Source of the DNA: Tridacna crocea
Taxonomy: Eukaryota; Mollusca; Bivalvia; Cardiida; Cardiidae
Direction: 5' to 3'
DNA length: 64,000 nt
Assembly (NCBI GenBank): GCA_943736015.1
Contig: OX031062.1
Coordinates: forward strand, 56,160,962 to 56,224,961
Shown: piece after piece, positions 33,250 through 41,690 of the stretch
How the letters are laid out: every line of letters begins with the position of its first letter
Numbering within the stretch: position 1 is the first letter of the stretch
Notes under the pieces: model-generated
Seen by the model: the letters and a program-made list of their open reading frames with translations, nothing else
The model's database searches: none
What the model was told of the DNA's origin: nothing
Made by a program: the position numbers and the translations under genes

Positions 33250-34327
33250 TAATTCGACAGAGTGAATTAAACTATCATGAATGATTGTCTATTAAGTTAA
33301 AATCTGGGTTCCTGTCTCCGCGGGATTGGTGGAAAACTCTTAAGTCAATTGTTTTTACACAATCTTCAAAATCCGTTCCCCTCCCCCCATATTTTTTTTA
33401 TTTTTGTAGAGATTTGCTGATTATCGACGAACATGATAGAGCAAATACATTGAATAATTATTTAACGTTATAATCAGTCTTGTATAGATATTTCCTTCGG
33501 TGCTCACCCTCATGACAGTTTCCACGCCATAAATGATACTTTAATTTAAATTCAGGTAATGGCGTCAGAAGTACTGGATGTTCTTAGAATACTTGAAACA
33601 AGTAAAGCCTCTGTCCCTGACAGCATAAATAATAGGATTCTTATTTAAGCAGCTGATCAGCTTGCACTGCATTTAAGCGATCTTTGTCGTTACTAACTAA
33701 AAACCAGTGGTTTTCCATCTTCATAGAACGTATCTAATATATGGCATAATATTCAACGCAAAAGATTCGACAGAGCCTAGCATAAGGGCTTGGTGATCAA
33801 GTTGCTAAGAGCAGGTATTGGAGGTAAATTATTGCCCTTGTTTTCTGATTATCCTTCTAATTGTTAACGACTTATTATACCAGGTGGTATCTCAAACTTA
33901 TGTCACGTACAGAAAAGTGTGCCCCAGGAATCAATTTCAGGACCACTTTTGTTTAATATTTAACCCCTTAACCCATAAGGCATTTCTGTGGTATCTCTAA
34001 CTGACCCTAAATAATAGCAAGGATGAAGCCGTTTCTTATGTGTATATGACACCTTTTGATAGTGAAGAAAACATTGTGGCAAAAGGTGAAATTGCTCGTG
34101 ACGAGCATTTTCACCTTTTGCCACAATGTTTTCCAAAGGCTCCTACAAGCAATGCGTAGAAATGAGTATCTGTGGAGTAAAGGGATAAGGGATATTGTTG
34201 ATTACATTTAGGCAGATATTACCGGCCTACCTTCTGTTGAATATGATGTTACATAGGACAACCTTTCTTAAGGGTTGAACAATCAGATTGATAATAGTCT
34301 GCCTCCCTTAAATCCTACGATGACTCC
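33250..34327 (+). pseudogene. Decayed LINE ORF2, 5' portion
   Basis: Recognisable pieces of another non-LTR ORF2 in broken frames: SPRDWWKTLKSIV and LLIIDEHDRANTLNNYL (33285-33473); VLDVLRILETSKASVPDSI (about 33566-33625); remnants of AFDR..HKGLVIKLLRAGI (about 33762-33818); and PQESISGPLLFN (about 33921-33960). Stops and deletions abound. A T1 MITE interrupts it at 33960, and it resumes with DIVDYI. The 6.75-kb TIR element then interrupts it at 34328; its 3' part is at 41078-41690. Confidence 0.72.
33960..34189. repeat. T1 MITE variant inside the old LINE
   Basis: Ends ttaaccccttaac and gagtaaagggataa. Centre attgtggcaaaaggtgaaat, tgctcgtgacgagcattttc. Together with 42495-42724 it forms a subfamily whose outer arm reads 'tactccatagatactcattt' (inverted here). 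Confidence 0.78.
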
Positions 34328-34460
34328 TGATGGCATTCTTTGTTAATGCTCGGCATCCATGCTAGAATTGTTCCTTAGACTATTACAAACAAGATAGGGG
34401 TGGATGCCCAGCGTGATTTTTCGATTTAAGGTCACAGTGAGGTCAAAGGTCAATGAGTGC
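34328..34460 (+). repeat. Left terminal inverted repeat of the 6.75-kb element
   Basis: A 38-bp outer block is identical in inverse to 41040-41077. The inner part has aggggtggatgcccagcg and gtcacagtgaggtcaaaggt, matching the right end with gaps. Confidence 0.85.
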
Positions 34461-35105
34461 AAAAATCAAGAAAAAATGGCTTGTAGCTAAAGCAAAATTA
34501 TTTGCGTCAACACAAAATGAAAGCAATGTGAACGAAATCAAATAAATTGAATCAGGAATGGACAGAGGCTCACCCCAGAGCCTATATTGTCATTTTCAAA
34601 CAGTATTTTACCATATTTATGCTAAAAAACGCTCAGGCCAATAACAAAATAGAGCACAATACTTAACGAAATTTTGATTGAACATGAGTAAAAGGTTTAT
34701 TATTACATACATATAATCCAAGGCATTCTTGTAACTAAAGGTAGCCATGCTAGAAATATTCTAGACTACTTCAAACAATGTTAGGATGCATGCTTAGTGT
34801 CTGTTTCGAATTTCAGGTCAGAATGAGGTCACAGGTAAAGTACGTTCAAATGTGGGAAACTGGCAAATACGTGCAAATGATGTACATTGTACATTATTTT
34901 CATCTTTAGAATTATGACAATAGGAACAAAATCAAATGCAAATAAGTAAAAATGAAACCAAGGCTTACCTCAGCCTCTCAATTGATATTTACAGGTAAAA
35001 CTTTACCATATTTCTGCTAAAAAGCGCCCCGGCGCAATGCAAAACAAAGAAATAACACAATACTGTCAGTAAACATGATGAAACACAATGCTTTATATAA
35101 TTGTC
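34340..35105 (+). repeat. Tandem ~395-bp subterminal repeat
   Basis: The left-end block recurs directly. ccatgctagaattgttcctt (34358) parallels ccatgctagaaatattctag (about 34746). ggtcacagtgaggtcaaagg parallels ggtcagaatgaggtcacagg. Also catatttatgctaaaaaacg (34612) parallels catatttctgctaaaaagcg (about 35009). Identity is moderate. Confidence 0.72.
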
Positions 35106-35241
35106 ATATACATGTTATTCAAGACACTTCTAAGGCTCAAACAGTTTCTGATATACAGCTTCTATTACCACACACCTTCTAATAAATGTCCATATGTGAC
35201 TACTTTCAGAAACATGTTTGTAGGAGACGTTTTAAAAGTGT

Positions 35242-38200
35242 CTACAGGTCGGCCAGTGGAAATTGCATTGATTCGGCGTACTCGATAGCCTCCAAGGCTG
35301 CTTGAAGTCCTACAGGATTAGCACATCCTGCTGCATCGCATGCACATTCAATCATGCAGATCTGACCAGCCTTAAAACACTTACATCTGGCAGTACTGCA
35401 TTTTGTTTTGCAGCCACAAGTAGTGAGTTCCATGCAAGCCGTCGGCACAGCTGGTAATCTACTCCACACAATTTCTATTCCATTTGGCCCAAGTTTCCAT
35501 CCACCAGTATCGGTTGCTGTTCCGATTTCCATTTGAGCATTATAAACATTCAGCCAAATTTTGGCCTGATGATCAGCTCTAAAACAGTGCAATTCAAGCG
35601 CATCTTTAGTAGGTGGTAGAAGTTCTAGCCCTTTTCTCGCCTTGGAGAAAAGATTGAATCGTATCAAGTCAATATCCACACCTTCTGTTTCAACGCATCC
35701 GCCATACAACCGAATGACAAATTCTTCTACTTCCTGTACGTTCAAGTCTCTACCTAATGACTGCAGCAGTTTCGGAGTTTCCAGGTACTGTTTCCAACAT
35801 GTTTTTTTGCCGATGCCGGAGAATGATGAGGTTGTATCGCAACCTGTCATGGCATGAAAGCCGAGAATGTTCTCCAGTGTATCGTCATTCAGTTTCGATG
35901 CAATAATGTGAACTGGATAGCACTTTTTCTGCTTAAACGTTCCTGACACCATCCATATCTCAGCTTCAGTGCGACCAAGGTGGTACAAAAGAAGAAGCAA
36001 TACAACAGTATCTCTACAAATGACAATTACTCGTTTGTAACCGTTCTGTATTGCATCTTTACCATGCAGAATCAAGCGTGTGTCTGCTTCCTCGTGATTA
36101 GCAGACAAGTCAGTTACGTCTCTTTTACTTGACTTTGTATTTACTGGGTCAGGAAAGCCACCCCCAGCAACCACTTCACAGTTCCCTGCCAATGATTCAG
36201 CTTTTTGTAAAAGTTTTTCTGACAGGTATGTTGCAAAATCTGCCTTATTATCCTCTAGTGCAATGAACTGTGTCCAAACCTGTGGTAATGGGACTTCAGG
36301 TCCCTGGATAAGCTTCCGAACTGGTCTCCGCTTTGCTGTTCGTTTGGTGCGTGTTGAAGACTTAATCGACTGCTGTCCTAAGTAGCGATCAAATGTGACA
36401 TCAACACGTGTTGTAGTGTGTCGCAAATGTTTGAATACAGATGTCAGAAAAGCATCTGCATAATCACCAAACGTGTTGCAACCGTGTGGTTTTCCAAGAG
36501 CTTGGATCGTTGCATGTCCATCGATTAAAACACAAGTTTGTAATTCAGATTTTGGAATATCAGACGGAGTTTCGATCTCCAGAGCTGTTGTCAAGAGAGA
36601 AAGCATGTCTGACTTTGATGTTTGATTCATCTGGCCATCAGGTTTGGCTAGAGAAAGAGGCACAGGAGACAATTCATGCTTTAAGATATCAGCCGTTTGA
36701 ACAGATCGTCCAGCATTGAACAAGCGTTGTAATAATTTTCTGTCTGCTTTCAACAATTTCTTCTCACTTTGTTTTTCTGTTGCTGGTATTTTGTACAAAG
36801 TAGCAAAGGTTTTTGAATTTTGCTTCTTGATTGTATCAAAAAACCCAACATTCTTTTCTTTGAGGCGCTGTTCTGTGAATTCTGTAACTAACAGTTTGCC
36901 TTTCTCTTCTGCTGACAACAAGTCTTTACTAATATCGTCTACTGCTACATCCTTTGTAGCCAGTGCGACAAGTCTGCTAGCAACAGGCTGGTCTTCGCTA
37001 GAAGCTTCACTTTCTGAGATCTGTGTTTTCATCGACGTTCCAAACACATCAAGTGAAACAAACTGTTTCACAAGTTCCTTAACCTTCTCCTCGTCCAGCT
37101 TAACTCTGGATGGCATTGCATCATTTCTTGCAAATGTGTTTTCTTCCTCATCATAGAGAAGTCCAAACAGAACTTTGGTTACTTGTGATACATGTGATCT
37201 AACTGCCCAAGTAGCACAAAATCGATCACGGGCTTGATCACTCCTGGTGATACCTATAATTCCACCAGACACTTTACACATTTTGTTGATCCATTCAGTG
37301 GCTTGGTCGGGAGGAACTTGGTTGAACAGGTTTTGGCTGCGTTTGATTACAAAGTTCCCCGCTTGAAATTCTCTGTATATTTCAGGCGCTGTTTTTTCTA
37401 ACGACCTCATTTCTGTCAGATAGACTGGCCCCCACCTTGAATAATTGTTGTGATCGTACACCACTAGCCATGGCAGTATGGCAGCAAAGGACTCGAGGTG
37501 GAGTTGCCAATTGCCTTCCCGCTCAGCCCTTATAAAGTTCAGAAGAGTCTCAACCATTTTCATGTACGACAGCCAAAATGCATAATTCTTGCTTGTTGAC
37601 ATAGAGGCGTCAAACTCATTCAAGAGATCAGTTAGTTTCTGGCTCTGTATGTAGCCTTCAAGGTTACCGACGGCTGTCTGAAACAATTCTCTCGCTGGCT
37701 TCTCTCTCAATTTGAATAGTTCAACAGTTGGACTTGCAATGTTTTCAAGATCACCCAAGGCTTTGTCTTGATGGGTTGTTAACCAGTCAAGAAACATGCG
37801 CCAACGAATTCGCCAAAGAGCCTCGTATGCTAACATATGACCCCTCACAGCTCTGTAATATGCCTTTCCCTCCAAGACTGTTTCAGTAGTATTTTGAGCG
37901 AAAACTCCAGATTCTATCCAAACATAATCTAGGCCTGCGGACTCCACATGTTGTCCTATTGCTTTAAGGAAATTGAAGCATACGTGCAGACCCCCCCCCC
38001 CATTCGGAAAATAACATTCCGATAGTTTTCTTCATTCGCCCATACAAGTTCCTTTCCCCTACTGTACAACGGCTGATCAGCTGTGATAACAGTATATTGC
38101 TGACCTAAATGTCGGCTTATGGATACAAACCGGTTTATGACAGTAGCCATGGTGTCGTTACTATCAGCTGGGGCTTGAAGAATCGGTAACATGCCAGCCG

Positions 38201-40084
38201 TAGTAATTAACGGATTTACTGAACAGCGTGTTTCATTAAATGCACCCCAGATTGGAACTTTCTGGTCATCTGAACAAAGGTGCCTAGCTAGTGTCCATGC
38301 TAAGTTAGTGTAAGTGGACAAACATGTTTGTGTTTTCTCACTTAACCACCTATCCATTTCATACTCTGTTCCATTTTCAAAACGGGGATTTGGTCTTCCA
38401 CTCGATGGGAGCTTGGCTTTATCAAGCTCGTGAAAACGTGCTAAGACTTCGTGGTCAAGTTTTGCAGGCCTGTTAGTTTGTTGTTCCAAGCTTTCCGTCA
38501 AATGATTGTCAGAACTTCGCTGACAAGCCATCATCTGTGTACAGTGGAATGTGTTTTTTCCATCTAACGTGGCTTCTAGAACATCAATATTGTCACATGA
38601 ATACTGCACGAGTCTTTCTGCGTCAATATTGTCCGGGACATATACATATCCATTTGCGACATATTTGTCCAATACGTTATTTGCAATTGCATTGTCCATT
38701 CTGTGAACCGTCTTAATGCCAATAGAGTGGTTTGCTGCATGGAATAGCTGTACCAGGTTTTCTGATCTAGTTGCCTGGTGTAAAGCGAGGCCAAGCCCAA
38801 TATGCTTTGGTGTCAACTTTCTGTGGTTTGACACACCGTATATTATGTCTTGGGCAATACTACAGATGGCCCTTTTTGCACCACTGTCTTCCAACGGGTT
38901 ATCCCCGGAGCCCTCCAAAATATCCAAGCCACCAAAGAGGAGACTTAGAAACAGAAACAGACTTTCAGGAATTATCCTTTCAACGTGTTCTTGGTCTATT
39001 CCTTGCCATAGATCGGTGTGACCAGGTGTATTCTTCAGATCAGCCCTGATTTTGATGGCAGTATGAACCATTTCTTGTAACAAATTTACATCACGTGTTT
39101 TGCTCATCAACACAGTGTCATCTTCAGATGAGCTTTCTGAAGAATCTGTGTCTGAAGAGGCAAACAGTTCCTTTTTGGAGGCCTTTGTTAGAGTTTTAGA
39201 AATTACAAAGTCAGATCACCCGGATACATGAAGAGTGGGGCCTTTATGTCTAAAGAGCGTACAAAATTAGCTTTGTGACCAAGATGTGTTCGTACATCAT
39301 CAGTGAATGATTGACGTCTTGACAAGTATTTCTGTGGTATTTCAGATTCCGGTGTTTCATCTGAAAGTTGCTGATACTTTTCCCAGACACTATTCATATC
39401 ATACACATGACCAAGAGCCAGACCATGTTCCAGAATATTGCAAAGTTCTGGCATGGCCAAGTCTTGCGTGGGCAAAATGCCCGTCTTGCGAATTTTTTCC
39501 ACTTTCCTTTCGAAGGTTACAAGACAAGGTAAATGATATTTTCCCTCGGCAGCGGGAAGATCGCTTATTCCTGATAATCGAACCCTCATAATTGGATCAA
39601 ACTTTGCATCCTCCATTATCTGCACAGACTTCTTCATATATTCTATATTGTGTAGTTCTTCACGCTTATCTGTTTGGCAAAACATGCACTTTTTCCAGTC
39701 TACTGGAGCGACTGATCGTCGCCCTGATCGAGAGGCTGGTTCAGTTACTTTTGTTTCGGAAACTATTGATTCCTCTGCTTTTTTCTGCAACCTTTGAATG
39801 TGCATCTCGGATGTAAATGAGCTGTAACAATTCTTATGCCATTTTATCTCTGAGGATGCCCACTCAGTGTCACTTAATGAGTCAAGCCTATCTAACACGT
39901 CTATACTGGCAACATCTCTGAACTGTCTCCGCCTTCGCACACACTCTCTCACTTTCTGTTTACCATCCTCGCTACCAACCCTTAGCTGATCTTTCCTAGA
40001 TGCCTGACATATAATGCAAAAATCAAAAGAACGTTTCAACACATCAGATTTTCTTTTCAACACAGTAACTGGATCAACGTCCAT
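35242..40084 (-). CDS. Element-encoded protein with paired Zn modules, acidic nuclease-like core and CXC domain (2 frameshifts)
   Basis: Three frames make one protein of about 1,610 aa. The first (40084-39203) holds two similar modules: FCIIC...WHKNCYSSF and KCMFC...KYHLPCLVTF. The second (about 39205-37956) and third (to 35242) hold the body. Breaks lie near 39205 and in an 11-G run at 37991-38001 (minus strand), directly after FRMGG. The third frame has LIDGHATIQALGKPHG, VDVTFDRYLG, NHEEADTRLILHGK, VIVICRDTVVLL and GFHAMTGCDTTSSFSG. This ordered set of acidic motifs is compatible with a PIN/FEN-like nuclease fold (inference). It ends with a tesmin/TSO1-like CXC domain (CGCKTKCSTARCKCFKAGQ, then CMIECAC; about 35310-35435). 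I recall many invertebrate hypothetical proteins with the HEEADTR and GCDTTS motifs. A transposase role is unproven. Confidence 0.75.
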
Positions 40085-40964
40085 GATTGGTGTAACTTAA
40101 ATTCTGAATTATAAAAGAAAGATTTATAATCAAAACAATCAAAGATTGAAATCACTGAACATTAACTACTAACTAGCATAAAATCAGCAGGATATAATGA
40201 CAAATTGTATAATCAAGTCTCAGTAACACATTTTACACGAAAACCCTAACTGTTTGCAACATATTTATCACCTTATCAGAATATAAAAACCTTTTGACTT
40301 CAAGAAAGTGAGATGGTTTGTTATGTAGAAAGAGTGCACGTCGCCTGCGTCCGGTAAACAAATACATTCAAATTGTCGTTTTGTAGCGCTGTATTTACTG
40401 GTACAGTGGCTAGCAGTATGCACAGTGTAATTAAATTAGTGTCATTTTCCTTTAGAGAGGCTTATAACAAAACTATTGAACAGAAATCTAGAACTCTTCT
40501 TAATATTAAAAGAATTCAAAACCTGTGTTGATACAAATTTTAAAGCTTAAACGCAATATTAAGTACTGAGCAAGTTCAACCGATTCCATTAGCCTACCGA
40601 CCTGAATTTTAGTTAAGTTTATAAAAGCAAAATACAATCCAAGTGTACACAGACCCTTACACAACGTAGAGGACACAATCACAAATTAAGAAATGCATAT
40701 GACTGAGGCATCATGGCAAATGCCGTTGAAAAAAAGACTGAAAACGTCAAAAATATTCAGAGATAAACCGTTTTTAGCTTCGGAAAGTACATTTTTCTAT
40801 CCCATAATAGTCAAAATATTCACAAAAAGTCGTCTTTTCAATAAAATAATGTCTCTGATGCAGTTTTCAGAAAATTTAGCACAATTAGAATTAATAATAC
40901 AGCATGTATAGCAATTAAAAATATCACAATGACGATTTTAATATGAAAGCGCACCTATTTGACC
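40085..40964. other. 5' leader region of the 6.75-kb element, no ORF
   Basis: About 880 bp between the minus-strand start codon and the right terminal repeat; presumably the element's promoter and leader. AT-rich, no recognised motif. Confidence 0.4.
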
Positions 40965-41077
40965 TTTGACCTTGCTGTGACATTAATTTCAGATTGGGCA
41001 TCCACCCTGGGAGGTTTTGTCATACCCCAAAGAATATTACTAGCATGGATGCCGAGCATTAACAAAGAATGCCATCA
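40965..41077 (-). repeat. Right terminal inverted repeat of the 6.75-kb element
   Basis: Contains tgacctttgaccttgctgtg, gggcatccaccctggg and tagcatggatgccgagcatt, inverse to the left end. The outer 38 bp (41040-41077) match exactly. Confidence 0.85.
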
Positions 41078-41690
41078 AAACAATTTTCTAGAGCTCGTAC
41101 GAATTATAGTCGGTAAACTATAAAGAACAAAATTAAGCTGCACGGAGTGTATCGGTTGCAATAAGTTAGTTACTGTCGTAGATCTATGCCAGCAATCTGG
41201 TTATGAAACCTTAAACTAACGACGGCTTAAGCACAAACTCAACCTCTTCTATAAAATGGCCGATGGGCTTAGTCCAAATTGTCTTAATACTCTTGTTCCA
41301 ACTACGGTTAGCATTTCTTGCAGTTACAACCTTCATGGGCCAAACGATTTGAGATTTGTTGTCGAACTAGCTTGTACAATGTTTCACTTTTGCCAGCTGT
41401 GATCAATGATTGGAATTCCCTACCAGGTGATACCAGGTATGTGCAATCATTTCCAGCCTAAACAAGCCTTATCCATGGAGGTTTATTTTGTTGGCGATAG
41501 GAAAACATACATGCCAGATTACGCAACAGATGCAGCGGCATCACTACTTTGTAGATGTGGTGCGGTTGAATCGACTAAACACTTCTTTTTAAAAAGTTCA
41601 TTTTATAATAACCAAAGAAATAGTGTAAGAGAGGGAGAGAGAGAGAGACTCTTCGTGGTCTGTACAAGAGAGATTTTAATCTAATGTCTC
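41078..41690 (+). pseudogene. Decayed LINE ORF2, 3' portion
   Basis: Continuation of the LINE at 33250-34327. Fragments include LELVRIIVGKL, LNLFYKMADGLSPNCLNTL, SYNLHGPNDLRFVVE and, after a frame change, YVFGDRKTYMP-like 'YFVGDRKTYMPDYATDA' with CRCGAVESTKHFF. This Cys/His tail is typical of CR1/Jockey-like ORF2. It ends in a ga-rich stretch near 41632-41652. Confidence 0.72.

Follow-up and report, generated by a model that had tools for sequence, protein, structure and literature searches.

The locus and its gene

The window (the whole 64,000-nt stretch of Tridacna crocea DNA that was analysed) contains three minus-strand open reading frames (ORFs) of 293, 385 and 901 aa which, judged from their sequence, are parts of one gene of ~1,570 codons (Table 1). 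Together they correspond to a single relative of 1,577 aa (P0002), with 54% identity over 98% of the 901-aa part. The original prediction had placed a single long gene here, and one gene it is, but not in one open frame: the window copy has two frame breaks, one of them near 38000, in a run of C where the sequencing may have erred. Besides these breaks, CRDTVVL at 35998-36018 has Val in place of the second Asp of the relatives' RDTD, and the sequence of the window copy, taken as it stands, cannot yield a complete protein. Long open frames of 1,557 (L030), 1,575 (L031), 1,470 (L032) and 1,470 (L034) codons were found elsewhere in the same genome, and in each of them the nuclease and the transposase described below lie in one continuous ORF. 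In the N-terminal zinc-finger-like modules, residues C9, H71, C74, C126, C129, H179 and C182 (P0002 numbering) are conserved in a 21-row alignment.

Table 1. Features of the transposon and its flanks (positions in the window; TSD, target site duplication; TIR, terminal inverted repeat).
Feature	Position	Strand	Remarks
Whole transposon	34295..41120	-	ends TAGTCTGCC... / ...GGTAAACTA; three copies diverge there; TSDs, empty sites
Left flank, older LINE	34229..34294	.	aligns jointly with right flank in up to 38 places
Left TSD copy, TAA	34292..34294	.	single in seven uninterrupted LINE copies aligned
Left TIR	34295..34389	+	imperfect outermost TAGTCTGCC..., then the 34328-34389 stretch
C-terminal gene part, 901-aa ORF	35245..37947	-	transposase second half, FEN/XPG-like nuclease, CXC
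CXC (tesmin/TSO1-like) Cys-rich stretch	35317..35421	-	residues 843-877 of 901-aa ORF
FEN/XPG-like nuclease	35515..36618	-	model residues 45-412
Nuclease motif TGCDTTS	35827-35847	-	named in original prediction
Nuclease motif NHEEADTR	36076-36099	-	named in original prediction
Nuclease motif TFDRY	36382-36396	-	alignment
Nuclease motif LIDGHA	36511-36528	-	alignment
Transposase E of DQATEW	37291-37308	-	901-aa ORF
Middle gene part, 385-aa ORF	37956..39113	-	first half of DDE transposase; ends in C-run frame break
Transposase D of TADQPLY	38064-38084	-	385-aa ORF
Transposase D of SCDNIDVLE	38574-38600	-	385-aa ORF
N-terminal gene part, 293-aa ORF	39203..40084	-	two CxxC...HxxC zinc-finger-like modules, CIICQ/WHKNCY and CMFC/YHLPC
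Right TIR	41016..41120	-	inward reading TAGTTTACC...
Right TSD copy, TAA	41121..41123	.	as left copy: TSD comparison and LINE copies
Right flank, LINE continuation	41121..41323	.	empty-site alignments

Ends of the element and its insertion into an older LINE

The gene lies within a transposon of 6,826 bp, whose limits were set by the points at which three genomic copies diverge. The window sequence matches copies on C2 and C16 at 98-99%, the matching being lost at about 34292 and 41122, and the ends are placed at 34295 and 41120 because the TSD fixes them. Each copy has a 3-bp TSD of its own, namely TAA (window), TAT (C2) and TAG (C16). The limits first proposed, 34328 and 41077, are not the true ends, since the element extends 33 bp further to the left and 43 bp further to the right; the near-perfect inverted repeat found there (arms 34328-34389 and 41016-41077, 62 nt, 87% complementary) is sub-terminal. 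Close copies do share common ends, as had been expected of them, but not at those termini. The mobility proposed for the unit is borne out by its TIRs, its TSDs, the existence of copies and the empty sites.

The element had also been thought to interrupt an older LINE, and other genomic places indeed align across the joined flanks. Both flanks, joined through one TAA, were used as the query for empty sites, and 40 rows were scored out of 552 candidates; two of these rows were the window's own two flanks, and the other 38 were other places, each spanning the junction with an identity of 74-80%. An alignment of seven of these places shows GGATAAAG at the insertion point in every one; the element is missing from all of them, and TAA is present once instead of twice. 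These LINE copies, uninterrupted at the insertion point, supply the empty sites that had been suggested as a check.

Copies, derivatives and related families

The searches covered a genome of 1.05 Gb (31 contigs). The C16 copy, of 1.4 kb, is derived by internal deletion, and the C2 copy, of ~3.6 kb, carries an additional inverted piece of the right end; the window parts common to these copies are at most 34292-35117 and 39476-41122. Both derivatives are devoid of the transposase and nuclease core and each has its own TSD, and the transposon protein therefore probably acts in trans.

A survey of ends covered 12 loci: the window, C2, C16 and nine further loci chosen for their long open frames among at least 56 matches (50 of 120 candidates scored). 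Termini of the form TAG[T/A][C/T] were found in 11 of the 12 loci; the right end on C16 has its last base changed. The TSD is an exact 3 bp in 10 of the 12 (one of these, L038, lies inside a T run, hence 3 or 4 bp) and agrees in two of three bases at L032; at L033, where the inverted repeats resemble a palindromic repeat, ends were not found. One scan for TIRs demanded a matching TSD, and a second scan that did not demand it ranked the same TIR pair first in 8 of 10 loci, the accepted L032 pair also coming first. Score margins were narrow (13 vs 12 at L031, 13 vs 11 in the window); the window pair is fixed independently through the copies.

Related families in the same genome carry the gene between different inverted repeats, with approximately the outermost five bases in common, an arrangement that the original prediction had counted against itself. 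Two loci of one such family, L036 and L037, lie about 20 kb apart and inverted on C17 and are 99.99% identical, with differing flanks and TSDs. Transposition in their family is therefore recent, and the pair suggests a very recent, perhaps local, event.

A DDE transposase fused to a FEN/XPG-like nuclease

The view that no standard DNA transposase is encoded here fails, because a DDE domain extends from the 385-aa ORF into the opening portion of the 901-aa ORF; the motifs on which that view was based all lie outside it. The transposase half of the 901-aa ORF was assigned by alignment to the L030 model. The D/D/E triad (region D481-D647-E898) is invariant in 31 aligned relatives, and the predicted structure is an RNase H fold in which a lengthy insertion, helical almost throughout, separates the E from the second D. 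Structural alignments, which took in the transposases of the P element, hAT (Hermes) and Transib/RAG1, matched this part of the protein to RNase H-fold DDE transposases at 5-9% identity, a match of the kind that had been named in advance as contrary to the first interpretation. Foldseek by itself gave no significant match for the transposase model, and a sequence search of the PDB gave no relevant one. The Pfam family DUF6589 matches the transposase part in 15 of the 31 relatives (E≤0.1) and lies above its curated cut-off in two of six relatives scanned; in the window's own three ORFs it has no match at E≤1, and two relatives scanned against NCBIfam had none. Between L030 and L031, dN is low in the two domains (0.155 and 0.207), and we give no dN/dS ratio because dS is saturated.

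NHEEADTR, TGCDTTS and a C-terminal CXC had been picked out from the start, and all three are confirmed, the CXC stretch matching Pfam TCR below its cut-off (E 0.0029, 18.3 bits against 23.5). A PIN/FEN-like nuclease does lie in the C-terminal half, as proposed, but is not supported as the driving activity of an undescribed type of element. Checked against FEN and PIN nucleases, the core is predicted to adopt an EXO1/FEN1/XPG fold; structural alignments took in FEN1, EXO1 and XPG, and identity to these 5′ nucleases was ~10-16%. The acidic residues are nearly invariant among relatives, and the predicted PIN/FEN fold together with this conserved acidic cluster places the domain in the FEN/XPG superfamily (the window copy reads RDTV). 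Unlike FEN1, EXO1 and XPG, the nuclease of the window family is fused to a transposase and a CXC. Literature searches on the HEEADTR motif or on DUF6589 found no paper, those on Academ with XPG gave nothing on this nuclease in titles or the first lines of abstracts, and those on FEN1 with transposases returned only a review of gene knock-in.

Classification

The Academ superfamily and its AcademX lineage reportedly go back to Kapitonov and Jurka in 2010 and Kojima in 2020. The Academ nuclease is of XPG type, and the Academ protein has a Cys8 zinc finger. As stated in excerpts of one study, TSDs are 3 or 4 bp in AcademX and 9 or 10 bp in AcademH, the length being linked to the encoded nuclease or helicase (PMC10045372). 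Excerpts of another describe Academ as almost exclusively bivalve among the molluscs studied, amplified in bivalves, and among the longest curated DNA transposons (PMC10294476).

Compared by description, the window family resembles AcademX, and nothing conflicting was found. It combines a DDE transposase, with its conserved triad and predicted transposase fold, and a nuclease of predicted EXO1/FEN1/XPG fold in the same ORF, and its TSDs, exact in 10 of 12 loci, have the length published for AcademX. A candidate for the Cys8 finger is the C-terminal CXC, which is below the Pfam cut-off. We conclude that the element is a damaged copy of the AcademX type, a known kind and not a new type of transposon, placed by published description. 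The fuller reading, an Academ-superfamily DNA transposon of the AcademX type that moves by cut-and-paste and in which one protein of ~1,570 aa does everything, is in our estimate about 87% probable.

AcademH shares a DUF6589 transposase region, weakly related, but has its helicase on a separate convergent ORF, no fused nuclease and a published TSD of 9-10 bp; no helicase was found among the Pfam families of the window's three gene ORFs or of the 31 relatives, and the TSDs are 3 bp. Elsewhere in this genome, stronger DUF6589 ORFs adjoin convergent helicase ORFs at two loci that are probably AcademH elements: L050, where Helicase_C is joined by a RecQ zinc-binding domain, and L052 (Helicase_C, DEAD). 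L051, which like L050 has a DUF6589 ORF, is 99.7% identical to L050 over 9.35 kb, and at L054 a DUF6589 ORF follows a weak PHD-like finger, below cut-off. The P element, hAT (Hermes) and Transib/RAG1 transposases have in common with the window family an RNase H fold that is interrupted, after the second D and before the E, by a long helical insertion, but their TSDs are 8, 8 and 5 bp, respectively, against 3 bp in 10 of 12 loci here, and we know of no fused nuclease in them. KolobokE and KolobokP also join or pair a DDE transposase with a nuclease; from the part of the description available, theirs is lambda-exonuclease-like or His-Me, and the transposase is that of Kolobok (PMC9587614).

A separate DDE-plus-FEN superfamily close to Academ, in which case the AcademX filing would be wrong, is the best of the alternatives, though unlikely. 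The assignment rests on description rather than on labelled Academ sequences, the DUF6589 link is modest, and direct profile comparison with the helicase-associated DUF6589 ORFs of L050 and L052 was weak; against this, TSD length and nuclease both fit AcademX as far as excerpts describe it (PMC10045372), and bivalves, in which Academ is amplified according to part of the survey (PMC10294476), are among the hosts of the relatives. It is much less credible that the element belongs to an undescribed type in which a PIN/FEN-like nuclease cuts and joins DNA without an RNase H-fold transposase. The FEN-like fold is well supported and its acidic residues hardly vary, but the protein has a DDE domain apart from the nuclease, which models as a transposase and whose triad is invariant in 31 relatives, TIRs with 3-bp TSDs are the usual products of DDE enzymes, and we know of no strand transfer by FEN nucleases; we therefore reject it on the DDE triad and the transposase fold. 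The C-terminal CXC recalls KDZ/Zisupton elements, an affiliation we consider highly improbable, since none of the 17 Pfam families matched by the 31 relatives (E≤0.1) bears a KDZ name and Zisupton TSDs are longer than the 3 bp found here. A host gene caught by chance between inverted repeats would explain one long conserved gene, but is rejected as scarcely conceivable for this locus, given paralogs that have TIR and TSD at their borders and lie in different flanks, the near-identity of L036 and L037 amid differing flanks, the broken window copy and the empty sites.

Possible mechanism of transposition

To our knowledge, transposition in the Academ superfamily has hardly been studied. For an AcademX-type element, DNA would be bound by the zinc fingers at the N-terminus and the CXC at the C-terminus, and the DDE domain would cut the ends and insert them into the target at a stagger of 3 bp, from which the 3-bp duplications would result. 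The duplications are observed; the chemistry of cutting and joining is proposed from the fold and the triad. The fused nuclease, by its predicted fold, may trim 5′ flaps or gaps after excision or integration.

Whether the fused flap nuclease goes further, taking an active part in transposition, setting the 3-bp duplication and partly freeing the element from host FEN1/EXO1, we regard as a tentative idea and somewhat doubtful. It would then remove a 5′ overhang or flap left by the DDE cut, or resolve a branched intermediate, and the TAG[T/A][C/T] terminus would be common to the families because both active sites recognise the boundary.

Distribution and minor observations

The gene had been expected among invertebrate "hypothetical proteins", and named relatives do come from Diadema, Mya, Mytilus, Paramuricea, Sycon, Pinctada and Elysia, most matches being without names. 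Matches labelled as metagenome-assembled genomes (MAGs) of bacterial symbionts (Sedimenticola, Ca. Thiodiazotropha) probably stem from host DNA; no relatives were found in viral_contigs with P0002 as the query or in genome_contigs with P0076. The locus reveals no new kind of transposon. It accounts for a set of invertebrate "hypothetical proteins" and supplies the superfamily with well-bounded elements, for which the true ends, the TSDs and the empty sites are at hand along with short derivatives and four intact ORFs of about 1,460-1,560 codons, and it raises the question of why a DDE transposase should carry a FEN/EXO1-like nuclease of its own.

The sequence AGGTCAAAGGTCA, which we take to be a perfect DR1-type nuclear-receptor site, lies at both ends of the element (34440-34452, plus strand; 40960-40972, minus strand). 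It occurs in all seven ends that the three copies have between them, the internal inverted piece on C2 being counted as one, with no occurrence in loci L030-L038 of other families and none in 100 shuffles. An abundant repeat of ~230 bp, which at 34067-34133 includes a hairpin of 67 bp whose 33-nt arms are 97% complementary, was also found by BLAST within the window at least at about 7209, 7978, 11363, 21701, 22955 and 24157, and it is present in the C2 and C16 loci too.
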